NCBI GenBank assembly: GCA_016201275.1
Contig: JACQDB010000014.1
Span: 1-42,118, forward strand
DNA: 42,118 nucleotides
Reading direction: 5' to 3'
From: Acidobacteriota bacterium
GTDB taxonomy: Bacteria > Acidobacteriota > Blastocatellia > UBA7656
The number at the start of each line of letters is the position of its first letter. Positions within the stretch are counted from its first letter, which is position 1. Shown piece after piece: positions 8,218 to 22,797 of the stretch. The position numbers were made by a program, and so were the translations under genes. The notes beneath the pieces are model-generated. The model did not search any database and was not told where the DNA came from. It saw nothing but the letters and a program-made list of their open reading frames with translations.

Positions 8218-9618
8218 TTATTTATCGGCAGGCTGCGGCTGTTGTTCGACCTGCGGCGTGGGCGCTTTTTTGCCGGGAATCATTTTCGATATGTCATTGA
8301 AAATAACGAAGCCCATCAACAGCATCAGCATTACCATGCCGACCTGCATCATCTTTTCTTTGACGCGCAAGGTTAAAGGCAGACCGAAGATGCCTAACAA
8401 AGATTCCAGTATCAGCATGAAAATCATGCCGCCATCGAGAACCGGTATCGGCAATAAATTAAAGATGCCCAAATTGAGCGACAACACTGCCATCAATTGC
8501 AGCACCGTGGTGGTGCCTTCCTGCGCCGCTTGTCCCGAAAGTTTCACGATGCCGACCGGCCCGGTCAAGGTGTCACGCGCCGAACGGTTGCCGGAGAAAA
8601 TTTGTCCGATGGCGGTTTTGGTCAATTTGATGATGCGCCAGTTGGCATCAACCGAGTTCTTGAGCGCATCCAGCGGTCCCAAGCGAGAGACCACCATATC
8701 CACTCCGCTCATGGTTTGCGTAAAGCCCAGACGATACGCGCCGTTATTCATTCGCGGCATCGCTTTGATGTCCATAGCCACGCCATCGCGTTTGATGTTC
8801 AAGGTCACCGGCTGATCTTTGCTGCCTTGAATGGTCTTGATAATTTCATCTGTGCCGTAGCGGTTTTGCTCGATGGCTTTGCCGTTGATGCCAACGATTC
8901 TATCGTCGGGCTTGAGACCGGCTTCGGCGGCAGGCTCGCCTTCGGCAACGCTGGCAACCAGTATCATGGTGTCAACCGGTTTGAATCCGGCATAGCCTAA
9001 CTTTTCGTCTTCCATCAAGCGCGTAGTGATCGGCACATTCACCTGTTTCACTTCGCTGCCGTGTTTGATGGTAACCGGAACGGTTTGTTCGGGGCGCACG
9101 AAAACATAATCTTCGACATCGCGCCACGAAGGATTTTCCAGATCGCCGATTTTGACGATCAAATCGTCGGGCTTGATGCCAGCCTTGGCGGCTGGCGAAT
9201 TCGGCTCGACCGCTTTGACCAGCGCCGGTTGATAGAGGTAAGCAGGAATTTCATGATGAACCATAGCCACCGCCGCCGGAATTGCCAGCGCTGTCAAAAT
9301 GTTCATCACCGGCCCGGCTACGGCGACACAGAAGCGTTGCCACTTGGGCTTCGACATGAATTCATCGGGCGCGCCGGTGATTGCTTCGTCAAGATTTTCG
9401 CCAGCCATTTTCACATAGCCGCCCAGCGGAATCAGGCTCAAACGATAATCCGTGTCGCCGCGTTTGAAACCGAATAGGCGTTTGCCGAAACCGACGCTGA
9501 ATACGTCAACCCGAATGCCAAAAAATTTTGCTACGATAAAGTGACCGAATTCATGAATCACCACCATTGACCCAAGAACCAGCACAAAGACGATGCCTGT
9601 TTGTAAATAACCGCCCAA
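8218..9618 (-). CDS. rseP: RIP metalloprotease, site-2 protease RseP
   Basis: The 466-residue membrane protein has the S2P zinc motif HEFGH at residues 22-26 in the first membrane helix, the conserved loop YRLSLIPLGGYVKM, two PDZ domains (about residues 125-200 and 205-285) and the second metal motif LLPIPVLDGG near residue 395 in a late membrane helix. This is the family that cuts transmembrane anti-sigma factors or signal peptides inside the inner membrane. The start is TTG, with AAGGAG seven to eight bases upstream; the nearby ATG is in another frame. The C-terminus is rich in Pro and Gln. It is not next to the usual dxr/cdsA/bamA neighbours here, so substrate is unknown. Confidence 0.93.
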   Translation of the reverse strand: MGGYLQTGIVFVLVLGSMVVIHEFGHFIVAKFFGIRVDVFSVGFGKRLFGFKRGDTDYRLSLIPLGGYVKMAGENLDEAITGAPDEFMSKPKWQRFCVAVAGPVMNILTALAIPAAVAMVHHEIPAYLYQPALVKAVEPNSPAAKAGIKPDDLIVKIGDLENPSWRDVEDYVFVRPEQTVPVTIKHGSEVKQVNVPITTRLMEDEKLGYAGFKPVDTMILVASVAEGEPAAEAGLKPDDRIVGINGKAIEQNRYGTDEIIKTIQGSKDQPVTLNIKRDGVAMDIKAMPRMNNGAYRLGFTQTMSGVDMVVSRLGPLDALKNSVDANWRIIKLTKTAIGQIFSGNRSARDTLTGPVGIVKLSGQAAQEGTTTVLQLMAVLSLNLGIFNLLPIPVLDGGMIFMLILESLLGIFGLPLTLRVKEKMMQVGMVMLMLLMGFVIFNDISKMIPGKKAPTPQVEQQPQPADK

Positions 9619-9785: not shown

Positions 9786-12194
9786 TCAACTGTTGCCTGA
9801 TGCCGGGCGCTCATCCGTAGCGTCCAACAACTCGCGCAGCTTGCGCGTCAATTCGGTCATGGTGTAGGGCTTGGCAATAAAGTGCGCGCTGGCGTCAAAC
9901 ACGCCGTGGCGTATGATCTCGTCATCCGTATAGCCGGAAGTGAAGAGAATCTTGGTCTCCGGGCGCATCAGCGCAAGCCGGGTTGCCAGATGCTGCCCAC
10001 CCATCTCCGGCATGACCACATCAGTGAACAACAGATGCACAGGGCCGTCGTGGTGTTCCAACAAGCGCAACGCGGCGCTGCCGTTGCTGGCGGTCAGCAC
10101 GGTGTAGCCAGCCTCCCCCAAAACATTTTGCGCCAACTGGCGGAGCGCCGCTTCGTCCTCGGCGACGAGAATGGTTTCCGTGCCGGGCAGGATCGTCAAG
10201 TTCAATGCGAAGTGATCGGGACGCGTCACTGCGCCGACTCGGGGCAGATAAATTTTGAAGATAGTTCCTTTGCCGGGTTCGCTGTCCACCCATATATGCC
10301 CCTCACTTTGTTTGACAATACCATAGACAGTGGACAAGCCCAGCCCTGTGCCTTTTCCGACTTCCTTGGTGGTAAAGAACGGCTCGAAGATTTGCTGGGT
10401 GGTGGCCTCGTCCATGCCGATGCCGGTATCGCTGACCATCAGCACCAGGTAAGAGCCTGGCGTTATGTCGTGTTGGGGGTGGGCATCGTGGGCGGTAATC
10501 TCGATTTCCTGCGTCGCCAGGGTCAGCGTGCCACCGCTAGGCATGGCGTCGCGGGCATTGAGTGCCAAATTCAAAATCACTTGTTCCAGTTGTCCGGCAT
10601 CCGCCTGAATATTGCCCAAGCCTTGCGCTGGCAAGAAAACCAGTTTGATGTCTTCGCCGAGCAGGCGTTGCAGCATACTTTGCAGGTTGGCGACCACAGT
10701 ATTGAGTTTCAAGATTTTCGGCTGCAAAAGTTGCTTACGGCTGAAGGCAAGCAGTTGCCAGGTCAAGGCGGCGGCGCGGTCTCCGGCTTCCCGAATTTGT
10801 TGGAAATTGTGGAACAATGGATCGTCTTCGCGCAGTTCCCGCAAGCCCAGATCGCACATTCCGATAATGACGGTGAGCATATTATTGAAGTCGTGCGCGA
10901 TGCCGCCAGCGAGTTGTCCGATGCTGGCCATCTTCTGGGCTTGCAGATACTGCGCCTGCATCTGTGTGCGTTCGGTGATGTCAACGTGCGAGCCGTGCAT
11001 ACGCAGCGGCGCGCCATCCTCGCCGAGCAACTTCGAGCCGCGTGCCAGGATGTGGCGATAGGTGCCGTCTTGGTGGCGAAAGCGAAATTCCACTTCGTAG
11101 GTGGCTGCGTTGCTGTCCAGATACGTCTGCACCACCTGTAATGTAGTTTCGAGATCGTCTGGATGCACACGGCTCTGCCACTCGTTGAAGTCGTCGGTAA
11201 TCTCGTCGTCGCTGTAGCCGATTTGACGCTTCCACTCCGGCGAGTAATAGACCTTGTTGGTGCGTATATCCCAATCCCATAAGCCGACTTGTCCGGCGCT
11301 GACAGCGCGCTGTAGCTGCTCCTGGGTCTGACGCAACTCGGCTTCTGCGCGTATGCGCTCGCTCAATTCGCTCTGCAATTGTTCGTAGAGGTGATTGAGG
11401 CGATGGTGAGCAATGGCGTGGTCTATGCAGTAAATCAGTTGGTCGAGATAGCCTTCGCGCTTGGCGATATAATCCGCCGCTCCTAAGCGCAGAGTGGCGA
11501 TGGCGGCGGCATCGTCGCCCTTGCTTGTGACCATGATGAAAGGCGGCAACCGCAGGTGCAGGCGCTTGGCTTCGCGCACGAAATCCAAGCCGCTCTGGTC
11601 GGGCATTCGCAAGTCAATCAAGGCCAAGTCGTAGTCGTGTGGTTGTGCCAAACGCGCCAACGCTGCACTGCAAGTATGGACGACCTCCACGGCGAAATGC
11701 GGCGCGGCTGCCGCGAAGTGCCGCAAGGTTAATTCGATGTCCATCGGCAGATGCTCGACATACAGAATGCGCCGTGGCAAGGTGCGGGGAAACCGCCCCC
11801 TACGGTGTTTTTGATGCTGCTCTTGTAGCACATCGCGCAGCAGGTCAGGAAGAGTGGCCAGATAATCGCTTTGCTTCGGCACATAATTGATCGCTCCCAG
11901 CCGCAGCGCTTTTACCACCAACTCTTCATCGCCGACGCCGGTCACCAACACCACAGGTATCTGTAAGCTGGAGTGCACCAGCGACTTCAACACCTCCAAC
12001 CCTTCCATGTCGGGCAGGTGATGGTCAAGCAGCAACAGGTCAAACGGCTGTTGGCGCAATCGGACCAGACACTGCTCTCCGGTGGCGACAATTTCGATGG
12101 CAAAGTCCGGCGCGACTTCGGCGAAATGGGCGCAGGTCAACTCGGCATCTTGCGGGTTGTCTTCGGCGTAAAGAACTTTGATGTTGGGATTCAT
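9786..12194 (-). CDS. Hybrid histidine kinase: REC-REC-PAS-HisKA-HATPase-REC
   Basis: The 802-residue cytoplasmic protein has an unusual order. Two receivers come first: residues 1-125 with acceptor Asp57, and 142-265 with Asp194. A short coiled coil (265-300) leads to a PAS domain (295-410, ending HVDITER), the HisKA box with His434 (GGIAHDFNN), the HATPase (N box LNARDAMPSGG; G boxes DTGIGM and GTGLGLS), and a third receiver ending near residue 795. In receiver 2 the usual acidic pair reads Glu147-His148 (YVEHLP) instead of Glu-Asp, which may weaken metal binding. I start at MNPNIKV because GGGAGG is placed six to seven bases upstream; this overlaps none of the preceding gene. Its first receiver is nearly identical to that of the 13542-14573 product. 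It is the last gene of the locus and may receive or collect phosphate from the receiver proteins upstream. Confidence 0.9.
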   Translation of the reverse strand: MNPNIKVLYAEDNPQDAELTCAHFAEVAPDFAIEIVATGEQCLVRLRQQPFDLLLLDHHLPDMEGLEVLKSLVHSSLQIPVVLVTGVGDEELVVKALRLGAINYVPKQSDYLATLPDLLRDVLQEQHQKHRRGRFPRTLPRRILYVEHLPMDIELTLRHFAAAAPHFAVEVVHTCSAALARLAQPHDYDLALIDLRMPDQSGLDFVREAKRLHLRLPPFIMVTSKGDDAAAIATLRLGAADYIAKREGYLDQLIYCIDHAIAHHRLNHLYEQLQSELSERIRAEAELRQTQEQLQRAVSAGQVGLWDWDIRTNKVYYSPEWKRQIGYSDDEITDDFNEWQSRVHPDDLETTLQVVQTYLDSNAATYEVEFRFRHQDGTYRHILARGSKLLGEDGAPLRMHGSHVDITERTQMQAQYLQAQKMASIGQLAGGIAHDFNNMLTVIIGMCDLGLRELREDDPLFHNFQQIREAGDRAAALTWQLLAFSRKQLLQPKILKLNTVVANLQSMLQRLLGEDIKLVFLPAQGLGNIQADAGQLEQVILNLALNARDAMPSGGTLTLATQEIEITAHDAHPQHDITPGSYLVLMVSDTGIGMDEATTQQIFEPFFTTKEVGKGTGLGLSTVYGIVKQSEGHIWVDSEPGKGTIFKIYLPRVGAVTRPDHFALNLTILPGTETILVAEDEAALRQLAQNVLGEAGYTVLTASNGSAALRLLEHHDGPVHLLFTDVVMPEMGGQHLATRLALMRPETKILFTSGYTDDEIIRHGVFDASAHFIAKPYTMTELTRKLRELLDATDERPASGNS

Positions 12195-12204
12195 GGTGGC
12201 CTCC

Positions 12205-13116
12205 CTATGAATTGGAGAACGGCGTTTCATTGGTTAGCAACCAGTACACCTTGATCTGTTTGACCACCTCGGAGAACGCGGCGAAATCCACGGGCTTAAC
12301 GATATAGGAATTGACGCCAAATTCATAGGCACGCGAGATGTCGGAGTTCTCGTCTGAAGTGGTGATGGCAACAAAAGGAATCTGTCGCCAGACCGCATAC
12401 TGTCGGGCATGATGCAACACTTCAACGCCATCCACCTTGGGCAGGCGCAAATCCAGTAGCACCAGCAAAGGCAGGTTGGCGTCGTCAGGCGTTTGGTGCG
12501 CTTCGATAAACTCCATCGCCTCTTCGCCATCGCGGCAGATATGAACCGGATTGGAGATGCTGTGTTCTTCAAAAGCTTGCAGCATGAAATCAATATCCAT
12601 AGGGTTGTCTTCGATCACCAGAATGGGACGCGGTGAGGGGCGGCGACGCAGCGTTTCAAGCTCACTTACTTTCTGGTCGAGTTTTTCAGTAAGCAAATGA
12701 GCATGAGCGCGGTCGAACTCTTGCCCGAACTCAGCCGCCGCAGAGGGCGCTTCATCCAATGCCGCTCTTACCGCTTGCAAAATATTTTCCGGCTCCGCTG
12801 GTTTGGGAAGAACATATTTGACGCCGCAACTCTGCGCCAAAGACCGCGCTTCGTGTTGGTCATAGTTGGCCGTCCAAAAAATCACCGGCAGGTCGGCCAG
12901 CGCTGGAATGCCGCGCAGTTGGCGCACCAACTCGAAGCCGTCCATCTTCGGCAACAGGAGGTCGGAAAAAATCAGGTCGGGGCGTGCGGCCTTGGCTTTA
13001 CTCAGCGCCTCAAGGCCGTCTTTGCTCTCAATCACGCAGTGGTTTGCCGAAGTCAGCACGGCTGCTAGGGCCAAGCGGCTGCCGGTGTCGTCTTCTACAA
13101 TCAAAATAGTTGCCAT
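12205..13116 (-). CDS. Double receiver-domain response regulator (REC-REC), module copy 1
   Basis: This 303-residue protein has two receivers and nothing else. REC1 (1-120) has the Asp pair in IVEDD, acceptor in IFSDLLLPKMDG and Lys in VLPKPAEP. REC2 (about 165-295) is of the Rcp1 type found next to phytochromes and other kinases: IEDNPMDIDFML, acceptor in LLDLRLPKVDG, Lys in SYIVKPVDF. There is no DNA-binding or enzymatic output, so it likely relays phosphate or acts by binding partners. The start is the ATG of MATIL, with GAGGA seven bases upstream. It ends 10 bases before the hybrid kinase start, so the two are cotranscribed. It is a paralogue of the 14570-15493 product, with nearly identical DNA over part of REC2. 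Confidence 0.88.
   Translation of the reverse strand: MATILIVEDDTGSRLALAAVLTSANHCVIESKDGLEALSKAKAARPDLIFSDLLLPKMDGFELVRQLRGIPALADLPVIFWTANYDQHEARSLAQSCGVKYVLPKPAEPENILQAVRAALDEAPSAAAEFGQEFDRAHAHLLTEKLDQKVSELETLRRRPSPRPILVIEDNPMDIDFMLQAFEEHSISNPVHICRDGEEAMEFIEAHQTPDDANLPLLVLLDLRLPKVDGVEVLHHARQYAVWRQIPFVAITTSDENSDISRAYEFGVNSYIVKPVDFAAFSEVVKQIKVYWLLTNETPFSNS
12421..12636 (-). repeat. Near-identical tract within REC2, partner of 14799-15012
   Basis: By eye this ~215-bp tract differs from 14799-15012 at fewer than about ten positions. The flanking parts of the same genes differ much more. This points to recent gene conversion or strong constraint rather than uniform divergence. Confidence 0.7.
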
Positions 13117-13541
13117 AGTCAATTCCTCGCGGCTCGTGGATCATCGAGTCAATAACCGGCAAAGGGATTTTGCCAAATCAGACCTCAAGACCTTGGCACA
13201 TTCGAGATTGCAAGAATGACGATTACCAGGGCTTCTTCACAAGGTAGCGTGTCGCAATTTTCAAACACGCTGGCTTGCTACAAAAGCGCAGGCTTGAGCG
13301 GCAATCCGTTACGCCGTCTTCGCGTCGTGGACGCCCTGCCAGTTGCAGGCGTTCAGCCCTTTGGCGAGCCATCGCGATGAAGAAAAGTGTTTGTCCATAC
13401 GGGGCACGCATCTTCGGATGGCCGCCAGCGTCAAGTGCATATTCAAGTGCGCCAAGCTTTTGAAAGGCTCTGGCCGCGTGCCGCCCATCACCACCGCCAA
13501 CGGGATGGGTCTGCAGTCCAAAAGGCGTGCGGGTCTGCGGC
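13117..13541. other. Gap between the two receiver modules
   Basis: This 425-base gap separates the two duplicated modules. A minus-strand frame covers 13223-13579 (118 codons, overlapping the end of the upstream gene) but has no clear ribosome site and no recognisable domain. A palindrome at about 13245-13270 (agcgtgt / acacgct) resembles the tip of the 102-bp elements. The promoter of module copy 1 may lie here. Confidence 0.45.
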
Positions 13542-14573
13542 TCAGGAATTCCATAATTTGCCATAGAGTCTTTCTCCACAGTCCGGGCAAATGCTATGCG
13601 TCAAACTGCTGTGGGTTTCGCGTGCCAGATAATTCTCGATAGGCATCCAGTTGTTCGGCTTCTTGGGGTCTGCGCCGGGTTCGCGAATCTTTTTGCAAGA
13701 GGCGCAAATTGACAAGAAGGCTTCCAGGTCTAGGACTCGCTGGCTTAACATCGCCCGTTCCTCTGTCAGGAAGCGACGCAGTTGGAAGCGCACGATGGCA
13801 GGCTCAAGGATGGACGCCAGATGCAGCAGGTAAGCATCGTGCTTGGGAAGGTATTCCTCGACGCCAAGCCGGAGCGCAGCAAGCGCCGACTCTTCGTTGC
13901 CAATACTGGTGACCGCGATAACCGGAAACTCCAGCCCTTCCTTGCGAAGCTGGCGGAGAAAGTCCAGCCCGTTGAGGCCAGCGAAAAAGAGGTCGAGAAG
14001 GATGATGTCGAAGTCGGAGCGCTGGCGTAAAATTACCAGCGCCTCTTCACAGTTTCGCACAAGCTGAAACTTCATACGTGGCGCGGCTTCGCGGCAATAA
14101 GTCACCGTCAAGTCTGCGTCCATTGCATTGTCCTCGATGTACAGCACCTGGCGCGTACTGGATTTGGAGCGCAAACCCATTTGCTGGCGCTGGCGTTCTT
14201 CGGCAACGAGGCGGCGCAACAGCGGCGGCAATTCGTCCAAATACCCGTTATGTTTTGGTACGTAGTCCACAGCGCCCAGCCGCAGCGCTTTGACCACCAG
14301 TTCTTGACTGCCGACGCCGGTCACCAACACCACAGGGATTTCGGCGTCCTCGTGAATCAAGGTCTGAAATAATTCCAGTCCATCTATGTCGGGCAAGTGA
14401 TGGTCAAGCAACAACAGGTCAAACGGCTGTTGGCGCAATCTGACTAGACACTGCTCTCCGGTGGCGGCAATTTCGATGGCAAAGTCCGGCGCGACTTCGG
14501 CGAAATGGGCGCAGGTCAACTCGGCGTCTTGCGGGTTGTCTTCGGCGTAAAGAACCTTGATGCTGGGATTCAT
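13542..14573 (-). CDS. Double receiver protein with C-terminal Cys/His motif
   Basis: The 343-residue protein has REC1 (1-125, acceptor Asp57 in LLLLDHHLPDIDG), REC2 (about 142-265, IEDNAMDADL and acceptor in IILLDLFFAGLNG), a helix, and a tail with Cys290-x2-Cys293, Trp309, His326 and Cys329-x2-Cys332 (CASCKKIR ... THSICPDC). This tail is a recurrent motif at the ends of sensor and receiver proteins; the spacing suggests a small zinc- or redox-sensitive site, which is inference. It starts by an ATGA overlap with the preceding double receiver gene, so translation is coupled. The first receiver is about 94% identical at DNA level to the start of the hybrid kinase gene over nearly 195 bases. 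Confidence 0.88.
   Translation of the reverse strand: MNPSIKVLYAEDNPQDAELTCAHFAEVAPDFAIEIAATGEQCLVRLRQQPFDLLLLDHHLPDIDGLELFQTLIHEDAEIPVVLVTGVGSQELVVKALRLGAVDYVPKHNGYLDELPPLLRRLVAEERQRQQMGLRSKSSTRQVLYIEDNAMDADLTVTYCREAAPRMKFQLVRNCEEALVILRQRSDFDIILLDLFFAGLNGLDFLRQLRKEGLEFPVIAVTSIGNEESALAALRLGVEEYLPKHDAYLLHLASILEPAIVRFQLRRFLTEERAMLSQRVLDLEAFLSICASCKKIREPGADPKKPNNWMPIENYLARETHSSLTHSICPDCGERLYGKLWNS
14381..14573 (-). repeat. Near-identical tract within REC1, partner of 12001-12194
   Basis: The first ~65 codons of this gene and of the hybrid kinase (12001-12194) differ at only about eleven of 194 bases by eye, mostly silently. Downstream, the same domain diverges quickly. It is the second patch of unusually high identity between the two modules. 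Confidence 0.7.
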
Positions 14574-15493
14574 AATGGCCTCCGGGATTCCGAGAACTGC
14601 GTCTCATTGGTTAGCAACCAGTACACCTTGATGTGCTTGATGACTTCAGAGAAGGAGAGAAAATTTACCGGCTTGATGATGTAAGAATTGGCACCCAGTT
14701 CGTAAGCGCGCGAGATGTCGGAGTTTTCCCCTGAAGTGGTCACCACGATAAACGGCACTTGCTTCCAAGCCGCATACTGTCGGGCATGGCGCAACACTTC
14801 GATGCCGTCCACTTTGGGCAGGCGCAAATCCAGTAGCACCAGCAAAGGCAGGTTGGCATCGTCAGGCGTTTGGTGCGCTTCGATAAACTCCATCGCCTCT
14901 TCGCCATCGCGGCAGATATGAACCGGATTGGAGATGCTGTGTTCTTCAAAAGCTTGCAGCATGAAGTCTATATCCATAGGGTTGTCTTCGATCACCAGAA
15001 TGGGACGCGGCGCGGGCGTTACCGGCGGCGCAAGCGGGGACGCCTTGCGGCTGGCAAGTTTGTCGGTGAGCAAGCGCGTATGCGCGTAGCCGAAATCCAA
15101 CGGGCTTTCAGGTTCCGCAGGCGGCAATTCATTCAGCGCGACGTTTATCGTATGCAGTATGTCCTCCGGCTCCGCTGGTTTGGCGAGAAGATACTTGACG
15201 CCGCACGCCTGTGCCAGCGCATGGGCTTCCGGCTCGTCATAGGTAGCCGTCCAAAAAATCACTGGCAGGTTGGCAAATGCCGAAACGCCGCGCATACGGC
15301 GCACCATCTCGAAGCCGTCCATTCGCGGCATCAGGATGTCGGCAAAAACCAAGTCGGGGCGCTCCGCCATAAGTTGCCCCAAAGCTTCAATGCCGTCTTT
15401 GGCCTCTATGACGCGGTGATTGGCGTAGGTCAGCAGCATCGCCAACATCTGGCGGCTGCTCGAGTCGTCTTCCACAATCAGAATCGTAGCCAT
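14570..15493 (-). CDS. Double receiver-domain response regulator (REC-REC), module copy 2
   Basis: The 307-residue protein is colinear with the 12205-13116 product. REC1 has IVEDDSSSRQ, acceptor in VFADILMPRMDG and Lys in LLAKPAEP. A Pro/Ala-rich linker leads to a Rcp1-type REC2 (IEDNPMDIDFML, LLDLRLPKVDG, SYIIKPVNF). There is no output domain. The start is the ATG of MATIL, with GAGG upstream; an upstream GTG would place the ribosome site inside the gene. It overlaps the next gene by ATGA. It lies 246 bases downstream of the stressosome kinase gene, a space filled by two inverted-repeat elements, so it may have its own promoter. Confidence 0.88.
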   Translation of the reverse strand: MATILIVEDDSSSRQMLAMLLTYANHRVIEAKDGIEALGQLMAERPDLVFADILMPRMDGFEMVRRMRGVSAFANLPVIFWTATYDEPEAHALAQACGVKYLLAKPAEPEDILHTINVALNELPPAEPESPLDFGYAHTRLLTDKLASRKASPLAPPVTPAPRPILVIEDNPMDIDFMLQAFEEHSISNPVHICRDGEEAMEFIEAHQTPDDANLPLLVLLDLRLPKVDGIEVLRHARQYAAWKQVPFIVVTTSGENSDISRAYELGANSYIIKPVNFLSFSEVIKHIKVYWLLTNETQFSESRRPL

Positions 15494-15517
15494 ATTTTTC
15501 CTCACAACGCGGATTTT

Positions 15518-15646
15518 TTAGAGCGATTTTCATATGTGTGTACGGAACACCTTATCGTTGAGCAGCGGTCTTCGACCGCGCGAAGGTCTTCGACCGCCGC
15601 TCAACGGGTTTGAGGTTTCTGTAATCTCAAACCAAAACCGCTCTAA
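15518..15646. repeat. 129-bp inverted-repeat element with TAGAGCG ends
   Basis: Ends ttagagcgatttt and aaaaccgctctaa are inverted with one mismatch. The tip tagagcg is the same as that of the 102-bp elements, so a shared transposase is possible. Inside are a palindrome family member (gagcagcggtcttcgaccgc ... gaccgccgctc) and a hairpin gtttgag / ctcaaac. Confidence 0.65.
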
Positions 15647-15745
15647 GTAGGTAGGCAAAAGTTTTTTGAAAAATAATCACAGAAAACCCTTATTTTTCAG
15701 GTTTTTTAATAAATCTTTTTCAAAAGATATACGCAAGCCTACTTA
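15644..15745. repeat. 102-bp AT-rich inverted-repeat element
   Basis: Ends taagtaggtaggc and gcaagcctactta are inverted, and the similarity runs on to tttttgaaaa on both sides (about 28 bp with several mismatches). It abuts the previous element and contains the stop codon of the stressosome kinase gene (15739-15741) in its right arm. The AT-rich hairpin may double as a terminator for the operon. Confidence 0.6.
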
Positions 15746-17094
15746 GGAGCGCCTAACTTGGGTAGTTCGACAAAAAAGGTCGAGCCTTGATTGCGTGCCG
15801 ATTGCGCCCAAATGCGCCCGTCTTGTTTGTCGAGAACTTTTTTGACGATGGCCAGTCCCGCCCCTGTGCCTTCAAATTCATCCACTCGCACCAGCCGGTT
15901 AAATAGTCCAAAGATGCGGTCGTGATATTTCATGTCAAAACCTATGCCGTTGTCTTGAATTGAAAAGCGCCAGACCGTCTCCAGTTCTTCGACCCGAATG
16001 CCGAGGCGCGGCGGGTTGGCGTTGCGACTGTATTTCAAGGCATTGTCAATCAGGTTGGTCAGCACTTGCACCAGACCGCGTTCCCACAGCCACGCCGTTG
16101 CCGCAGGAATTTCGTCCGTCACTTCAACGCTTTGTTCGGCGATGATCAGGCTGCGATCTTGCAGGATGGTGTCTATCAGGTCGCGCAGGTTGACGGTGGT
16201 GGGCGATGGCGTTTCGGCATCCAGCCGCGAAAAGTGCAGCAGGTCTTCGATCAAGTGATCGAGGTTGCGCGTCGCTGTCAGAATTTGCGTCAAGCAGAAC
16301 TGGGCGCGGTCGCTTAAACCGCCGCGATGCTTGCGGTCTAGTTCCTGCGCGTATCCGGCAATGCCGCGCAAAGGGGCTTTCAAATCGTGCGACACGGTGT
16401 AGGCAAAGCCTTTGAGTTCTTCGTTGCGGGTTCGCAACAGAGCTTCGGTCTTTTCTATCGCTACAGCCTTTTGCTCCAACTCGCTGTAGAGAGCGATCAT
16501 CCCGTCATTGGTTCTCATCAACTCGCTATTGACGCCGGTCAATTCCTCTTCACGCTGGCGCAATTGCTCCAGCGCGGCAAGCAATTCCTGATTCTGAGTG
16601 CGAATCTCTTCGAGCGGAGAAGCGCTGAAGGCGTTGGCCAAATCTTCCGTGATGCGCCGCAAGGTCGCCGCCGTGACCAGCGGCGCGGTCGGCGGCAAGG
16701 GCTTGCCAAAGGTCACCTTGGTGCCTTGGTCGGCAGTGCTGGCGATGTGAAAATCATCCAGCAGCCGTCGTGTGCCGATGATGCCCAGCCCTAGCCCTGT
16801 GGGCGAGACATAATGCCCTTCCAAAAGCGCTTCAAGATTGGCAATGCCCGGGCCTTGGTCACTTACCGTGATGCCAAAGCGTTGCGGACGTTTTTGGTCT
16901 TCGATGAAGAATTCCACAGTGCCGCCGCCGCCGTACTGATAAGCGTTGCGGGCAATCTCCGACAGCGCCGTGCCTAAGCGCGTCTGATCGTGATGCTCAA
17001 ACCCTAGAAGTTTGGCAATGCGGCGAGCGCGTTGACGGGCATACACCACATCCTGTTCATAGCGGAGTTCGAGACGGGCGATGGCCAGGCTCAT
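15739..17094 (-). CDS. Histidine kinase with N-terminal RsbT-like ATPase domain
   Basis: The 451-residue protein joins two ATPase modules. Residues 1-130 are RsbT-like (SEIARNAYQYGGGG, DQGPGI, PTGLGLGIIG). A coiled coil (160-225) follows, then a HisKA domain with His236 (FAYTVSHDLKAPLRG) and a C-terminal HATPase (N box LIDNALKYS, DNGIGF, GTGAGLAIVKK). It has no membrane segment or sensor domain; the RsbT-like module may link it to the stressosome core. It overlaps the phosphatase gene by ATGA. In known stressosome loci (for example Vibrio) a kinase often follows rsbX, passing stress signals to a response regulator, so this kinase is the likely bridge to the receiver proteins downstream. Confidence 0.88.
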   Translation of the reverse strand: MSLAIARLELRYEQDVVYARQRARRIAKLLGFEHHDQTRLGTALSEIARNAYQYGGGGTVEFFIEDQKRPQRFGITVSDQGPGIANLEALLEGHYVSPTGLGLGIIGTRRLLDDFHIASTADQGTKVTFGKPLPPTAPLVTAATLRRITEDLANAFSASPLEEIRTQNQELLAALEQLRQREEELTGVNSELMRTNDGMIALYSELEQKAVAIEKTEALLRTRNEELKGFAYTVSHDLKAPLRGIAGYAQELDRKHRGGLSDRAQFCLTQILTATRNLDHLIEDLLHFSRLDAETPSPTTVNLRDLIDTILQDRSLIIAEQSVEVTDEIPAATAWLWERGLVQVLTNLIDNALKYSRNANPPRLGIRVEELETVWRFSIQDNGIGFDMKYHDRIFGLFNRLVRVDEFEGTGAGLAIVKKVLDKQDGRIWAQSARNQGSTFFVELPKLGAPK

Positions 17095-18110
17095 GGCTGC
17101 CTCCTTGCTTGCCGTATGACGATCACCGCGTTGTCATCGCGGGTACGGTGAAAATCGCGGAACAAGACTCCGGCAAGCAGCGCTGAATGTCGCCCCTGCA
17201 ATCCCGGATAATCATCCAGATTCCAGTGCGCTGTCAGGCCATCCGTATGCAGCACGAGCAAGCCGTCATCGGGCATGGCATAGGTGAATTCCTGAAACTT
17301 GCGCGCTTCCATGCCGACCGTGCCGTTGTGTGAAACCATACTGCGTAGGGCAGCGCTGGTAAGGATGCGCCCGGCGATGTTGCCAACGCCGATATAGCGC
17401 ACCAGGTGCTGGCTCCATATCACCTCAGCGATAGCCACCACGGCTCCGCGTGTGCTGCGTAAGGCGGCGTGCATACGTTCCATAATCTCGGTAGGCGTGA
17501 GGTGAGAAAACTTATCGAAGATATGCACGGCTTCGGCGGAAGCTTCGGCGGCAAACAGTCCATGTCCCAAGCCGTCGGCCAGCATAACGAGGGTGCGACC
17601 GGGCGTTTGATGAAGCGCCCAAGCATCGCCGCAACTCTCTTCGCCGCTCACCGGCAGACAGATCACACCGATTTCCGGCCAGAGTTGGAGCGGCATCTCT
17701 GGCAGCCTTGGCGACCAGATGTGGCTCAAGATAGCCGTCCCTTGTCCGGCTTGCGAATAAATATCGAAGACCGTGGAGAGCCTTTGCACAGACCCCAAAC
17801 CCGTGCCTGCACTACCGACGGTGGAATGACCATCGCGCAGGCTCTCGCCGAGGTTGGCAATCCCCGCCCCTTGGTCGAGCGACAGAATTTCGAGGCCGGA
17901 GTGATCGCCTTCGTGCAGGGCGCGCAAAATCAGTTCGCCTCTCGCGGCGTGTTTCAAAAGATTGGTCGCCAGTTCGGTCACCACGATGGCGACATTGCCG
18001 TTGCGCTCTTCATCGAAATTCAGGCTGCGCCCCAAAGCTTCAGCGCGCCGTCGAGCTTCGCCGACCTGACTGCTTTCTTCGACGCGCTGGCGATAGGAAA
18101 TCGCCGTCAT
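17091..18110 (-). CDS. RsbT-like ATPase fused to SpoIIE/RsbX-type PP2C phosphatase
   Basis: The 339-residue protein has an N-terminal HATPase (about 10-130: VTELATNLLKHA, DQGAGI, GTGLGSVQRL) and a C-terminal PP2C/SpoIIE domain (about 145-335: GDAWALH, MLADGLGHG, LHTDGL, RDDNAVIVI) with the metal-binding aspartates in place. RsbX removes phosphate from RsbR and RsbS and so resets the stressosome. The added ATPase domain is found in many non-Bacillus stressosome loci. The start is the ATG overlapping the rsbT stop (ATGA), with GAGGTGG six bases upstream. Confidence 0.88.
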   Translation of the reverse strand: MTAISYRQRVEESSQVGEARRRAEALGRSLNFDEERNGNVAIVVTELATNLLKHAARGELILRALHEGDHSGLEILSLDQGAGIANLGESLRDGHSTVGSAGTGLGSVQRLSTVFDIYSQAGQGTAILSHIWSPRLPEMPLQLWPEIGVICLPVSGEESCGDAWALHQTPGRTLVMLADGLGHGLFAAEASAEAVHIFDKFSHLTPTEIMERMHAALRSTRGAVVAIAEVIWSQHLVRYIGVGNIAGRILTSAALRSMVSHNGTVGMEARKFQEFTYAMPDDGLLVLHTDGLTAHWNLDDYPGLQGRHSALLAGVLFRDFHRTRDDNAVIVIRQARRQP

Positions 18111-18514
18111 ATCGTCCACCTCACTATGGTTACGCGAGTGCCTTCGCCAACCGCTGACCAGATTGCGAATTCGTTGACCAGACGCTTGGAACCGCTCAAG
18201 CCCAGCCCCAATCCGCCGCCCGTGGTATAGCCATCGGTCAAGGCCAATTCAAGGTCGGCGATTCCCGGTCCCTGATCTTCAAACACCAGCCGTAAACCAC
18301 GGCGACCGTCATCCGCCAACGCCTCCATGCACACGCTGCCGCCGCCGCCGTATGCCAGCGCGTTACGCGCCAGTTCGCTGGCGGCGGTCACCATCTTGGT
18401 CTGATCTACCAAGCCAAATTTCATCTCCACCATCCACACCCGCACCATCTGCCGCATACGGATTACGTCATCAGAGGTTTGCAGTTGAAAGGTTTCACTC
18501 CGGGTTGGGTTCAT
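18107..18514 (-). CDS. rsbT: Switch kinase RsbT
   Basis: The 135-residue protein is a single HATPase domain: N box ASELARNALAYGGGG, G1 box DQGPGI, G2 box GGLGLGLSG. It is of the RsbT type, which phosphorylates RsbS and RsbR on Ser/Thr and leaves the stressosome when it has done so. The gene overlaps the end of rsbS by 20 bases. Two ATGs are possible, at 18523 and 18514; the second has GAGG at better spacing, so I use it. It overlaps the next gene by ATGA. Confidence 0.9.
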   Translation of the reverse strand: MNPTRSETFQLQTSDDVIRMRQMVRVWMVEMKFGLVDQTKMVTAASELARNALAYGGGGSVCMEALADDGRRGLRLVFEDQGPGIADLELALTDGYTTGGGLGLGLSGSKRLVNEFAIWSAVGEGTRVTIVRWTI

Positions 18515-18890
18515 TGCCGTCATCCTCTGCCAAACCGTTCAGTTGAGCAATCAGCAACGCCATGCCTTTGTCCACATTGAGGGCGGTGCGGACATTGTGC
18601 AGAGACATCCCCAACTCGACTATGGTAATGGCCACCGCCGGTTGCATCCCTACGACGACGCTTTCAGCCCCCAGCGTGCGCGTCATTGCGGCAATATTGG
18701 CCAACATACGACCGATGAAGGAATCAACGATTTCCAATGAAGAGATGTCAATCAATACGCCTTTGGCGCGATCCTTCACCACTCGACTGGTCAGGTCATC
18801 TTGTAAGGTCATGGCCAGCCGGTCGTGCATATCCACTTGAATGGTGACCAGCAGAAAGTGACCCATTTTGAGAATCGGAATTTTATCCAT
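18495..18890 (-). CDS. rsbS: Stressosome STAS-domain protein RsbS
   Basis: The 131-residue protein is a single STAS domain. The target of RsbT is visible as Ser57 in SLEIVDSFIGR, matching Ser59 of Bacillus RsbS; the helix that follows (MLANIAAMTRTLGAESVVVGMQPAVA) is typical. RsbS builds the core of the stressosome with RsbR and holds RsbT. AAGGAG lies seven bases before the ATG. It is 22 bases after rsbR and overlaps rsbT. Confidence 0.92.
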   Translation of the reverse strand: MDKIPILKMGHFLLVTIQVDMHDRLAMTLQDDLTSRVVKDRAKGVLIDISSLEIVDSFIGRMLANIAAMTRTLGAESVVVGMQPAVAITIVELGMSLHNVRTALNVDKGMALLIAQLNGLAEDDGNEPNPE

Positions 18891-18912
18891 GACAAGGCTC
18901 CTTTTCTCCTGG

Positions 18913-19776
18913 CTATGTGGTCTTGCGGGTGAAGGTAATCGCCATCAATTTGAAGGCATAGGACAGCGCATCGGCCAGCGAAGCTTTGGTCACCACATCG
19001 CCCATCGCCACCCCTAGATGCACCATAGTCTGGGCAATCTGTGGGCGTATGCCGCTGATGATGACCTGCGCGCCCATCAAGCGAGCGGCGGTGACGGTTT
19101 TGAGCAGGTGTTGCGCCACCAGTGTATCCACCGCCGGTACGCCGGTGATGTCTATAATGGCAATTTCGCTTGCCGTGTCCACGATGCCTTGCAGCAGGTT
19201 TTCCATGACGATTTGAGTGCGAGCGCTGTCGAGCGTGCCGATCAACGGCAGCGCCAGAATGCCCTCCCAGAGCTTGACCACCGGCGTGGACAGTTCCAGT
19301 AGTTCCAGTTGCTGGCGTTTGATTACCTCATTGCGACTGCGGACAAAGCTCTCGATGGTGAACAAGCCCAGCTTGTCAAGCAGAGTGGTGGCGCTCCATA
19401 CCTCTGCCAGCAGGGCGTTAGCGTCTTTGCCGGTCGCCGTGTTCAGGCGCGTGAAGAGCGGTTGTTTGAGAGAAAAGATAAAGGTAGCGGTCTCGGACGG
19501 CGAGAAGTTTTGCAGCGCACGGGAACGCGACAACGCGCTCAGAAAATCGCGCACCGGCGTCCACTCCGCCGTGGCAAGGTCTTGCGGGTTGCCACGCTCA
19601 AGCGCTTGCGTAAGCAGTTTCAAAAATTCCAGCGACTCGCGGCGCAGGTCGGCTTCCGACAACAGGTCGCGGCGTAAGGTGATGGCGCTCAGTTGTTCTT
19701 TGACCCAATCTTCAAGAATGTCTTTTTCATACGCGGTCAATATTTCGGAAATTTTGGAAATGGGAATTGCAGTCAT
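18913..19776 (-). CDS. rsbR: Stressosome sensor RsbR
   Basis: The 287-residue protein has a helical N-terminal domain (1-150, RsbRD type rather than an obvious globin), a linker helix, and a C-terminal STAS domain (165-285). The two threonines phosphorylated in Bacillus RsbR are conserved: Thr218 (DITGVPAVDTLV) and Thr250 (ISGIRPQIAQT). It is the first gene of the operon. I choose the ATG of MTAIPIS because AAGGAGGAA is correctly placed; the longer frame has no ribosome site. The signal sensed by the N-terminal domain is unknown. Confidence 0.92.
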   Translation of the reverse strand: MTAIPISKISEILTAYEKDILEDWVKEQLSAITLRRDLLSEADLRRESLEFLKLLTQALERGNPQDLATAEWTPVRDFLSALSRSRALQNFSPSETATFIFSLKQPLFTRLNTATGKDANALLAEVWSATTLLDKLGLFTIESFVRSRNEVIKRQQLELLELSTPVVKLWEGILALPLIGTLDSARTQIVMENLLQGIVDTASEIAIIDITGVPAVDTLVAQHLLKTVTAARLMGAQVIISGIRPQIAQTMVHLGVAMGDVVTKASLADALSYAFKLMAITFTRKTT

Positions 19777-20230
19777 CGGGATTCCTCCTTGGGGGGATAA
19801 CGGATGGTGATTCATAATCATGAAAAATGCTTGCTCGTAGTTGCCAGTGAAACCCTCGTTGTCAACTGCAGAGGCGTTGAGTGCAAGGTCATTCTGGCTT
19901 GCCTATGGTTGTTACGGATTCCTATCACGGAAGGAAGTTGGCATAGCTGGAAAAGGCGATTCCTATTCCGCAATACCCGAATTGTGCATGGCAGGAGTTT
20001 GGTGTAAGGTCATCTCCCTTTTGTGACCTCCTCACTATAGCGCAGGGCTGATAAATAAACTAGCAAGTGCAAAAATAAAGTTACTACCCAGCCGGTTTGA
20101 AAATTGCCGGTTGCTTTGTTATTGCGCTGTCGGCGCACCGGGGCCAAGCCAGCGGTCAGAGACCGCTGGTCAACGGGAATCATGGGATTTTATTTTTTCT
20201 CTTCCCTTAGCCAGCGGTCTCTGACCGCTG
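19777..20230. other. Upstream region of the stressosome operon
   Basis: No gene. A perfect TTGACA on the minus strand (tgtcaa at 19860-19865) is a possible -35 box, but the -10 at 17 bases (aactac) is poor. The part beyond 20084 is repeat sequence belonging to the dispersed family and the agcggtc palindromes. Confidence 0.35.
20084..20230. repeat. Dispersed-repeat end plus two opposed agcggtc palindromes
   Basis: The first 40 bases match the repeat end also found near 7945 and 41908 (ttgaaaattgccggttgctt). Next are two 19-bp perfect palindromes, cagcggtc-aga-gaccgctg at about 20150-20168 and cagcggtc-tct-gaccgctg at 20212-20230, in opposite orientation. The second touches the stop codon of the M1 aminopeptidase gene and may form its 3' hairpin. 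Confidence 0.75.
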
Positions 20231-22729
20231 CTAATCCTTGGTCGGATTCTTTAACTGATTAATCGTGTTGGTTAAAAACTGCACCGCAAAAGGCGGCAAG
20301 CCCGGTGCTTTCAAAGCCTCTTCGAGAAGTGGAATCGCACGCGCATCGCCGAGGCTGGCAATCGCTTGCAGGGCGCTGAATTTCAAGGGCAACGCCGCGC
20401 CTTCTTCCTTGAACAGCGCCAGCAAGGTATCCATAGCGCGTGGGTTGCCTTTGCCAATGGCGGCCAACAAAGTTACGGCGTTGAGGCGCACCTCCAAGGG
20501 ATAATCCGGCGCAGCATATTGCACAGCCACATCCAGCGCTCGCGGGTCTTGCAATGCCGCCAAGCCGCCCAACGCTCCGGCGCGAATCGTGTCTTGATAC
20601 GAATCCAACTGCAGCGCCGTCCGCAATACCTCGTAAGCTTGCGGCGCTGCGCTTTGCCCTAACGCTCGTGCGGCATCCGCGATGGCGAAATAGCTTGGCT
20701 CGTGGTGCATGATGTTGATGAAGGTAGCGGCCAGACTCGCGTCTTTGAAATTGCTCAAGCCATTAATCGCGGCACGCCGAATCGGTGCGTCTTTGTCCTT
20801 CAAGATGGCAAGCAGCGCCGTTTTCGTCGCGGCGGTCGGCACTTCCGCCAGCGCTCTGGTGGCTTCCAAACGCACGCCACGAAAACGGTCTGTGGTCGCC
20901 GCTTGCGCCAACGCTTTGATGACTGCATCGCTTTTGTGCGTCTTCAAGGCGATAGCCGCCAACACTCGCCCCATCGCATCCGTATCGCCTAGCAGTTGCG
21001 CGATCAATTCGTCATCGCTGCGTGCGAACGTCATTTGCTTAATTAAGTAATTGCCTTTGTCGAAATTGATGAACAAGGGCTTGGCGTCAACCGCAAAGAC
21101 AAACTCCTGCTCGCCTTTGTTCAACCATACGCGATGAGTTTTTTCACCCGCCGCCGTGGTGATGGCGACATCTACGGGCATGGTGAAAACGGCTGGCGTG
21201 GCGAACCACTTGCGCTGCTCGTCGGGCTTCTGCGTCTGCTTGACCGTGAGCGTCACGGTCTTGGCGCTGTCGTCATAGCGATAGGCAACGGCCAATTCAG
21301 GATGTCCCATTTGGTACAGCCACTGGTCAAAAAACCATTGCAAATTCTGGCCGCTGGCTTCTTCAATCGCCACCACCAGTTGCTGGGTTTCGACGTTCTG
21401 CCATTGATATTTTTTGAGGTAATGACGCAGGGCTTTCCAGAACATCTCTTCGCCTAAAACGAAGCGCAGCATATTGACCACCGCCGCGCCGCGTGGATAT
21501 ACATAAGCGTCAAAGAGGGCGTCGGGGTCTTGATACAAGCGCGTGACCATAGGGCGTCGGAGGCCGCTGTTCCAGGCGCGAAAATATTCCTCTTGATTGT
21601 TGTGCATTTCGTATAGATAAGCATCGCGGCCTTTGTCGTGTTCGGTCCACATCGCTTCCATAAAGGTGGCAAACGATTCATTGAGCCACAACTCGCTCCA
21701 GTCTCTGCAAGTCAACAGATTGCCGAACCAACTGTGCGCCAGTTCATGAGCGACCAGTCCATCGGAAGACAAATCCAGGTGGGCGCGTTGGTCATGCACG
21801 GCGGTGTCGCTCATGGTTGTCGCCGTGATGTTTTCCATAGCGCCCGGAAAATTATGCGCCATGACCTGGGCGTATTTCGGATACGGAAAATCGTAGTCGA
21901 GGCGTTGGGAAAAATAGGCCACCATCTGCGCCAATTTGCCGAGCGCTACGCGGGCGTTGTGAACCTGATTTTTATAGACAAAAGAACTGACAGGGGTGTG
22001 TTTGAAATGGTCTTTTACTTCCGCATATTCGCCGACGATGATCGAAATCAAATAGCTCGAAAACGGTTGCTGCATCAGCCAGTGAAAAGTTTTGGTGTGC
22101 TGCGCCGGAGCGGCGGTGACGCGAATCAATCTGCCGTTGGAGATCACTTGATACTTGTCGTCAACGGTGGCAATCAATTCGCTGGTGGCTTTATCGTTGG
22201 GCGCGTCATAGCAGGGAAACCAGTAATGATTGGTCTGCGCTTCGCCCTGCGACCAGATTTGCGAGGGGCGATTTTTTTCTGTCGCAGTGGGCGTGATAAA
22301 GGCGATGGCTTGCGGGTTCACCGGGCTGGCGACGTACTGGACGGTAAGAGAAAGAGGCGTATTAGCCGCATATTTTTTATCCAGCGTGACGATCAGTTTT
22401 TGATTATTGACGTAGCGAAATTTCAATGGTGTGCCTGGGGCGAGATGGACGGCTTTGATCTCCATCTGTCCGGCATCGAGTTCGACTTCGCTGAACTGAT
22501 CGGCAAAGGGCTTGAGCGTGATGGTGGTTTCGCCGCTCACCGATTTTGCCTGCCAGTCAAAAGTGACGTTGATTTTGTAATGCAGCACGTCATAGTTGTG
22601 GCTGCGCGGCCATTGCACGGGCGGCGCGGCGAGTTCTGGTGCGGGCGATTGCGCGAAGTTGGACAAGGCGTTGCCAAGCAGCAGGAACAGCGCGATCAGC
22701 GGACCGAGTTTAGAAAATTTGCGGGACAT
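20231..22729 (-). CDS. Exported M1 family aminopeptidase with C-terminal HEAT repeats
   Basis: The 832-residue protein starts with a signal peptide (cleavage near residue 26). It has the beta-sheet N-terminal domain of M1 peptidases, the substrate motif GAMEN at 296-300 and the zinc site HELAH at 328-332 with the third ligand Glu351 (WLNESFATF). The last ~230 residues are HEAT/PBS-lyase-type helical repeats (KTALLAILKDKDAPIRRAAI, then LDVAVQYAAPDYPLEVRLNAV). Expected role: removal of N-terminal residues from peptides in the periplasm. The start at MSRKF follows AAGAGG; the longer frame has no site. The stop is followed by a palindrome. Confidence 0.92.
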   Translation of the reverse strand: MSRKFSKLGPLIALFLLLGNALSNFAQSPAPELAAPPVQWPRSHNYDVLHYKINVTFDWQAKSVSGETTITLKPFADQFSEVELDAGQMEIKAVHLAPGTPLKFRYVNNQKLIVTLDKKYAANTPLSLTVQYVASPVNPQAIAFITPTATEKNRPSQIWSQGEAQTNHYWFPCYDAPNDKATSELIATVDDKYQVISNGRLIRVTAAPAQHTKTFHWLMQQPFSSYLISIIVGEYAEVKDHFKHTPVSSFVYKNQVHNARVALGKLAQMVAYFSQRLDYDFPYPKYAQVMAHNFPGAMENITATTMSDTAVHDQRAHLDLSSDGLVAHELAHSWFGNLLTCRDWSELWLNESFATFMEAMWTEHDKGRDAYLYEMHNNQEEYFRAWNSGLRRPMVTRLYQDPDALFDAYVYPRGAAVVNMLRFVLGEEMFWKALRHYLKKYQWQNVETQQLVVAIEEASGQNLQWFFDQWLYQMGHPELAVAYRYDDSAKTVTLTVKQTQKPDEQRKWFATPAVFTMPVDVAITTAAGEKTHRVWLNKGEQEFVFAVDAKPLFINFDKGNYLIKQMTFARSDDELIAQLLGDTDAMGRVLAAIALKTHKSDAVIKALAQAATTDRFRGVRLEATRALAEVPTAATKTALLAILKDKDAPIRRAAINGLSNFKDASLAATFINIMHHEPSYFAIADAARALGQSAAPQAYEVLRTALQLDSYQDTIRAGALGGLAALQDPRALDVAVQYAAPDYPLEVRLNAVTLLAAIGKGNPRAMDTLLALFKEEGAALPLKFSALQAIASLGDARAIPLLEEALKAPGLPPFAVQFLTNTINQLKNPTKD

Positions 22730-22756
22730 AAAACCTCTTGAACGCCTTGAAAGCTG

Positions 22757-22797
22757 CGAAGAACACGAACCCATCACGGATGGGTTCGTGTTCTTCG
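22757..22797. terminator. 17-bp perfect hairpin between DUF2911 and M1 genes
   Basis: Arms cgaagaacacgaaccca (22757-22773) and tgggttcgtgttcttcg (22781-22797) pair perfectly around a 7-base loop. It follows the DUF2911 gene stop by about 40 bases on the minus strand. No U tract follows, so it may be an attenuating or stabilising hairpin or a repeat rather than a classical terminator. Confidence 0.55.

Follow-up and report, generated by a model that had tools for sequence, protein, structure and literature searches.

How stressosomes outside the Bacillales signal to two-component proteins is an open question. An excerpt of PMC9237108 already describes "phosphorelays" made up of HisKA and REC proteins that follow RsbRSTX (RSTX) modules, and relates that in Vibrio an interaction between RsbT and the kinase was attempted and not shown, with transient phosphorylation being suggested; in Moorella thermoacetica, according to an excerpt of PMC4976288, the stressosome acts on a diguanylate cyclase. 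Titles and abstract openings in the open-licence literature gave us no description of an RsbT-like domain on stressosome kinases, of such a domain being swapped among kinase cores, or of the relay reported here. The present analysis concerns a stressosome locus in a 42,118-nt stretch of DNA (hereafter the window) from an Acidobacteriota bacterium (assembly GCA_016201275.1, contig JACQDB010000014.1; genome of 6.84 Mb in 162 contigs). There, a chimeric kinase, HK1, appears to wire the stressosome to a phosphorelay: we consider it likely that the stressosome controls HK1 through an RsbT-like domain and that HK1 phosphorylates the receivers encoded behind it. The chimera would thus offer a testable answer to the question above, namely entry of the signal via the RsbT-like domain.

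The locus comprises nine genes, all on the minus strand between 9786 and 19821, at the positions given in an earlier sequence-only reading; the end at 19776 in that reading is an in-frame ATG 15 codons within the open reading frame (ORF) that begins at 19821. Domains are those found by Pfam:
18913..19821, minus strand: RsbR, an RsbRD_N sensor-type N-domain and a STAS domain
18495..18890, minus strand: RsbS, a single STAS domain
18107..18523, minus strand: RsbT, a GHKL-type kinase (HATPase)
17091..18119, minus strand: TX, an RsbT-like ATPase domain (HATPase_c_2) fused to a SpoIIE/PP2C phosphatase
15739..17094, minus strand: HK1, 451 aa, HATPase_c_2, HisKA and HATPase
14570..15505, minus strand: RR1, REC-REC (Response_reg twice)
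13542..14573, minus strand: RR2, REC-REC (Response_reg twice) and a Cys4 tail (CxxC...CxxC)
12205..13122, minus strand: RR3, REC-REC (Response_reg twice), a duplicate of RR1
9786..12230, minus strand: HHK, a REC-REC-PAS-HisKA-HATPase-REC hybrid kinase (Response_reg three times, PAS_3)

Positions and domains thus agree with what had been read from the sequence alone: RsbR, RsbS and RsbT, an ATPase-PP2C fusion and a kinase with an RsbT-like N-terminus, and then four further genes in the same direction that encode nine receivers (2+2+2+3) and one hybrid kinase. The absence of sigma factor, anti-sigma factor, GGDEF, HD and DNA-binding families likewise holds for the nine proteins (Pfam, E <= 0.001), among which the RsbU-RsbV-RsbW-SigB cascade is absent as well.

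For comparison we used 108 other loci with an RsbT relative, a non-random sample made up of 80 named loci (the best 80 of 347 relatives), 8 plasmid regions and 20 further stretches chosen from the matches listed; no TX pair in the set exceeds 97% identity. Their neighbourhoods were annotated with home-made profiles built from the window, with a Pfam check for selected sets only. Three of these stressosome loci matter most here: L112 of Methylobacter psychrophilus (Pseudomonadota) and L091 and L120 of two Anaerolineae metagenome-assembled genomes (Chloroflexota). Two further loci, L152 (genome G278, 7.1 kb) and L153 (genome G227, 10.9 kb), are whole short contigs from genomes of the window's own phylum, on which a GAF/PAS kinase is followed by a single REC and a REC-REC-PAS-HisKA-HATPase-REC protein; no stressosome gene lies on the 7.1 and 10.9 kb of these contigs.

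HK1 is, by its sequence, a chimera with its joint near residues 201-226. Residues 1 to ~220 correspond to the RsbT-like domain and linker of stressosome kinases, and residues ~226-451 to a HisKA and HATPase core of the relay-kinase clade. The RsbT-like domain shares 56-57% identity with typical stressosome kinases; the core shares 64-71% with L091, L120 and L112 and 67-69% with the PAS kinases of L152 and L153, versus 28-30% with the best-scoring other stressosome kinases and 28-29% with the typical ones. When identity was followed along HK1 in 25-residue steps, five stressosome kinases (L062, L063, L066, L074, L102) reached 16-72% in the steps before residue 226, most of them between 40 and 60%, then fell to 16-32% over residues 226-375 and stood at 24-56% in the final part, which is conserved in kinases generally, whereas L152 and L153 matched at 4-36% up to residue 225, at 100% and 96% over residues 226-250, and at 48-88% to residue 450. 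The joint sits at the linker-HisKA border, the place expected for an exchange of sensors. A tree of 121 of the 214 kinase cores places HK1, L091, L112, L120, L152 and L153 in one clade of six (Shimodaira-Hasegawa-like approximate likelihood-ratio support of 100). In a tree of 117 of the 289 RsbT-like domains, the 39 that belong to kinases and to two fusions with GGDEF (T-GGDEF) form one clade (support 95), apart from RsbT (86) and from TX (100).

The receivers point to the same relay. Compared with 430 receivers from stressosome loci and from receiver clusters without an adjacent stressosome, the second receivers of RR1 and RR3 are 60-71% identical to the single receivers of L112, L091, L152 and L153, with the next match at 52%; the RR1 domain is the single-receiver type of the relay (Rcp1-type). 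HHK-REC1 (56-70%) and HHK-REC2 (46-72%) match the REC-REC units of L091, L112, L120, L152 and L153, which end in PAS-GGDEF-EAL in L112, in GAF-HD-GYP in L091 and L120, and, as in HHK, in PAS-HisKA-HATPase-REC in L152 and L153. Across these five loci the spacing between the kinase, receiver and REC-REC genes ranges from -140 to +35 nt. Of 20 neighbourhoods around relatives of RR1-REC2, 11 have the same succession of a kinase, a lone REC and then a protein that starts with REC and continues with PAS, kinase or GGDEF; the order also fits L192, L195 and L198, where the ORF table dropped the single receiver; the window's own genome holds such a cluster (L154).

Among the 109 loci, window included, the only stressosomes with this relay are those of the window, L091, L120 and L112, from three phyla, and their RsbT and TX sequences form one clade (support 96 with 74 rows, and 100/93 with the 53 rows left after removal of long-branch rows and near-duplicates). 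In the 74-row tree, genomes of the window's phylum sit next to named Acidobacteriota. The sequence-only reading had named chance adjacency of the stressosome and receiver genes as a finding that would refute it; the two groups belong together, because the four relay-bearing stressosomes are one clade and because these receivers accompany this kinase core also in loci with no adjacent stressosome. The HHK REC-REC unit was found in 5 of 392 genomes of the window's phylum (E <= 1e-40) and, in evenly drawn samples, in 1 of 231 genomes of the phylum of L091 and 1 of 121 of the order of L112 (E <= 1e-55), in each case the starting genome; the genome of L120 was not among the matches. This patchy presence, combined with the single clade of the core, leads us to infer that relay and stressosome core may have moved as a unit by transfer. 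An explanation of the window's relay as the usual stressosome relay (a kinase with RsbT-like domain and REC-REC, plus a REC-PAS-HK-REC protein) with a split gene was rejected, since the HK1 core, the second receivers of RR1 and RR3, and HHK REC1-2 all match the other relay.

The first receivers of RR1 and RR3 are not explained by the relay; their nearest relatives outside the operon lie in the window's own genome, at 44-53% identity. These are the receivers of cluster C81 (L151:1884-11682), which encodes a ten-PAS kinase, a REC-REC protein, a Cys4-tailed REC protein and a hybrid kinase. Searches of plasmids gave only partial matches of up to 43% identity with RR1 and no match at E <= 1e-25 with the HHK REC-REC unit. 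RsbT has relatives of 41% identity on the haloarchaeal plasmids NZ_CP058531.1 and NZ_CP087725.1.

A TX gene is present in 97 of the 109 loci, and the gene after it carries an RsbT-like domain in 74 of these 97 operons, encoding 58 kinases with a fused REC, 11 kinases without one, 2 T-GGDEF proteins and 3 others. The T-GGDEF fusion, of 376 aa, is found in the stressosome operons L043:11366-12496 and L045:6907-8037 of two same-phylum genomes (Pfam for L043) and forms a short path from stressosome to cyclic di-GMP (c-di-GMP). Further downstream, in 63 loci, Pfam assigns a receiver to all 65 signalling proteins scanned and a c-di-GMP enzyme (GGDEF-EAL or HD) to 3 of them, leaving 62 that have none; their 22 Pfam families include no DNA-binding family. 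The 65 (one of which, in L098, is the kinase with RsbT-like domain itself) come from 74 candidates in L041-L140, the window and the plasmid loci lying outside this set. Nine candidates, truncated or further on, were left out: L080, the third protein of L091, the second of L096, L098, L116 and L124, the second and third of L103, and L129. Candidates were limited to proteins with a profile- or motif-detected domain, so a separate output gene further on, among the unscanned domain-less genes, is possible. Within the scanned proteins, receivers without an output domain are typical of such operons and not special to the window. The view that the output-free layout is unusual, put forward from the sequence alone, is therefore abandoned, the more so as HisKA/REC phosphorelays behind RSTX modules are in print in the excerpt of PMC9237108.

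The module that would feed this relay is a sound stressosome module: RsbR (N-domain and STAS), RsbS and RsbT are present in this order, with their phospho-sites and a nearby PP2C phosphatase, TX, which is likely an RsbX-type feedback phosphatase. RsbR and RsbS match chains of solved stressosomes (best E 3.3e-34 and 1.8e-29, respectively), and the N-domain of RsbR is RsbRD_N (E = 1e-29), with the globin family not among its Pfam matches. RsbR S199 falls at the position that we take to be T175 of Listeria RsbR (assuming the site numbers T171/T175), and 98 of 99 RsbR proteins have Ser there. RsbS S57 aligns to Listeria RsbS S56, and RsbR T233 to Listeria RsbR T209 (site numbers as given in an excerpt of PMC9237128); counting the window, the Ser is kept in 92 of 96 RsbS proteins and the Thr in 97 of 99 RsbR proteins. 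The N-box was counted in 106/106 RsbT, 74/104 TX and 60/77 kinases by a regular expression too crude to weigh either way. The genome has a single RsbT; of its three matches, one is RsbT and the other two are the kindred domains within TX and HK1. Among 58 searched relatives' genomes only the window's own has an RsbT match at E <= 1e-25; at E <= 1e-20, 36 of 396 genomes of the phylum have one, own included.

Domains, conserved phospho-sites, the joint, the clades and a local duplication are legible in the sequence itself; every phosphotransfer and release step of the following model is inferred from them. Under stress, RsbT would phosphorylate RsbS (S57) and RsbR (T233/S199), upon which RsbT-like domains would lose their binding sites on the stressosome. 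Because HK1 bears such a domain, the stressosome would release it or switch it directly. The HisKA domain of HK1 would then autophosphorylate and pass phosphate to two kinds of target, the single-type receivers (REC2 in both RR1 and RR3) and the first receiver in HHK and RR2. HHK would be the main local end point, its PAS-HisKA-HATPase-REC part replacing the GGDEF-EAL or HD-GYP of the sister operons, and would hand the signal to a putative HPt protein or regulator encoded elsewhere, while TX would reset the system. Phosphotransfer from HK1 to the receivers is the step that we regard as highly probable, because the core keeps its receivers whichever of two dissimilar inputs it has; control of HK1 by the stressosome through the RsbT-like domain seems probable, as the domain is kept where the core differs. 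A broader reading, which we hold tentatively and, taken as a whole, at slightly less than an even chance, makes the domain a third paralogue of RsbT that serves as a movable adaptor for stressosomes: RsbS would capture and release it, and this would constitute the output of the complex. The adaptor would be kept and its cargo exchanged (hybrid kinase, GGDEF enzyme, or a relay kinase core shared with PAS sensors), RsbT would be mainly an internal kinase, and the duplicated receivers would fan the stress signal out to several partners.

Several observations weigh against control of the relay through HK1. In 17 of the 97 TX operons, TX is followed by a kinase on which no RsbT-like domain was detected (the remaining six comprise one TX-kinase fusion and five unassigned cases), so stressosomes can probably reach a kinase in another way. 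This suits a scheme in which released RsbT is itself the messenger that binds or phosphorylates HK1, like the printed proposal for Vibrio VvD1, leaving the RsbT-like domain for dimerization or docking only; we judge it improbable, given that the domain is kept on the next gene in most operons as a clade of its own, is retained despite differing kinase cores, and also occurs fused to GGDEF. Just four stressosome loci carry the relay, and in G227, the source of L153, a different contig encodes a relative of RsbT (42% identity). The REC-REC tree also fails to separate stressosome from PAS-kinase copies, with L152 falling inside the stressosome group; this mixing leaves the direction of capture between stressosome and PAS-kinase relay uncertain.

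The gene row itself raises the last such point, as gaps of 233 nt between HK1 and RR1 (with palindromes) and of 419 nt between RR2 and RR3 could split the operon. ATGA overlaps, which the sequence-only reading had described, hold for TX/HK1 and RR1/RR2 (4 nt), two of the eight junctions, and the remaining six differ: RsbS/RsbT, RsbT/TX and RR3/HHK overlap by 29, 13 and 26 nt, and RsbR and RsbS are separated by 22 nt, the other two junctions being the longer gaps (all lengths use the start codons picked by the ORF tool). Scans for promoter-like sites (4 versus 5.3 expected) and terminator-like sites (10 versus 14.9 expected) were uninformative. The gaps, along with the other kinase-receiver clusters of this genome (L151, L154), would fit two transcription units that merely share a neighbourhood, the stressosome acting on HK1 alone and RR1 to HHK serving other kinases. 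We consider this very unlikely, since the same core and receivers adjoin, tightly spaced, in five other loci under two kinds of input, making HK1 the expected donor. The palindromes belong to a REP-like (repetitive extragenic palindromic) family:
20151..20229, no strand assigned: two palindromes AGCGGTCNNNGACCGCT, upstream of rsbR
15565..15597, no strand assigned: related palindromes between HK1 and RR1, one with an exact core and the other with 2 mismatches
The genome holds 71 exact copies of AGCGGTCNNNGACCGCT, versus 0 of a reversed control, several of them paired ~60 nt apart.

Regarding receiver chemistry, the acid pair, acceptor Asp, Thr/Ser and Lys are intact in eight of the nine receivers, the ninth being HHK-REC2, with E-H as its acid pair. 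The second acid is also missing from REC2 of all seven related REC-REC-X proteins (L091, L112, L120, L152, L153, L215, L216), where the pair reads E-H in five, A-H in L120 and E-P in L215; Asp, Thr/Ser and Lys are kept except in L215, which has Glu and Ala for Asp and Thr/Ser. This shared loss makes the altered REC2 an old feature of the relay and not a product of decay. RR2 is more than a shortened HHK, because its REC2 is canonical (E-D) and only 35-43% identical to its eight nearest relatives. The Cys4 tail of RR2 recurs in three other proteins of the set, one of them after a receiver in the C81 cluster, and falls below every Pfam cut-off (best Zn_ribbon_HMPTM, 20.4 bits versus 27). An identification of HHK as CckA, the best NCBIfam model, was rejected, its C-terminal match scoring 445.8 bits versus a cut-off of 1000.

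Part of the receiver set evidently arose by local tandem duplication, and within the copies two tracts are nearly identical:
14272..15494, minus strand: duplication copy A, RR1 and the RR2 N-terminus
11893..13117, minus strand: duplication copy B, RR3 and the HHK N-terminus, with 79.5% DNA identity to copy A
14814..15010, minus strand: near-identical tract 1, the N-terminal half of RR1-REC2, acceptor Asp included
14412..14567, minus strand: near-identical tract 2, the N-terminal half of RR2-REC1, short of the acceptor Asp
RR1 and RR3 are 70.7% identical as proteins, and the REC-REC units of RR2 and HHK are sisters (85/97, REC-REC tree). Shared fourfold sites of RR1 and RR3 are identical at 33/33 over residues 153-242, versus 22/43 over residues 3-152 and 10/21 after 242; for RR2 and HHK the figures are 30/32 over residues 1-90 versus 18/40 afterwards, the exact run of tract 2 stopping three codons before the acceptor Asp. 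As silent sites cease to differ, the tracts would have been homogenized in a gene-conversion-like manner, gene conversion being the simplest explanation, rather than by selection on the protein alone. The N-terminal half of CheY-like domains carries the kinase-facing helix 1; both tracts fall on this half. Homogenization of the N-terminal halves of two receivers while the remainder diverges could be expected if the duplicated receivers served to absorb or buffer phosphate, thereby setting the threshold and timing of the response, and HHK were the sole true output, and RR1 and RR3 have no Pfam domain beyond their RECs. The Cys4 tail of RR2 and its second REC, unlike that of HHK, suggest separate roles, and we regard such a buffering function as rather unlikely.

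Beyond the nine genes, an M50 protease with two PDZ matches (RseP-like, 8218-9618) is the next gene on this strand, beginning 167 nt past HHK, and an M1 aminopeptidase with a C-terminal HEAT-repeat array (20231-22777) lies upstream of rsbR.

What is new here is the source of the relay: a ready-made relay that serves PAS-sensor kinases elsewhere and would be joined to the stressosome via the chimeric HK1. Different types of sensor share it, stressosomes from three phyla have it downstream, and its output enzyme has been exchanged. As their core is closely similar, the L152 and L153 PAS kinases provide native swap partners for domain exchange.

Set against described systems, the nine-gene locus lacks the RsbU-RsbV-RsbW-SigB genes found downstream in the sigma-B operon of the Bacillales, and the GGDEF, EAL or HD-GYP at the relay end of c-di-GMP-output stressosomes. 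With the RsbRSTX modules of Vibrio and other Gram-negative bacteria, as presented in the excerpt of PMC9237108, it shares the order of R, S, T and phosphatase, the lack of a sigma-B cascade, and HisKA/REC genes immediately downstream; it differs in having RsbRD_N on RsbR, where the group shown in Fig. 3 of that paper has a globin, in the RsbT-like domains that both its phosphatase and its kinase carry, and in its nine receivers. The stressosomes of L112, L091 and L120 resemble it in having a sister core, the HK1 type of kinase and a REC-REC unit with altered REC2, and L091 and L112 also share the single REC; they differ in ending in PAS-GGDEF-EAL (L112) or GAF-HD-GYP (L091, L120), whereas in the window a hybrid kinase closes the relay and the receiver block is duplicated. 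The PAS relays of L152 and L153 have the same core (67-69%), single REC and REC-REC-PAS-HisKA-HATPase-REC protein, the kinase input being GAF/PAS there and an RsbT-like domain in the window. Moorella and the window, finally, both have a stressosome output without sigma-B, which in Moorella is a c-di-GMP enzyme and in the window a receiver relay.

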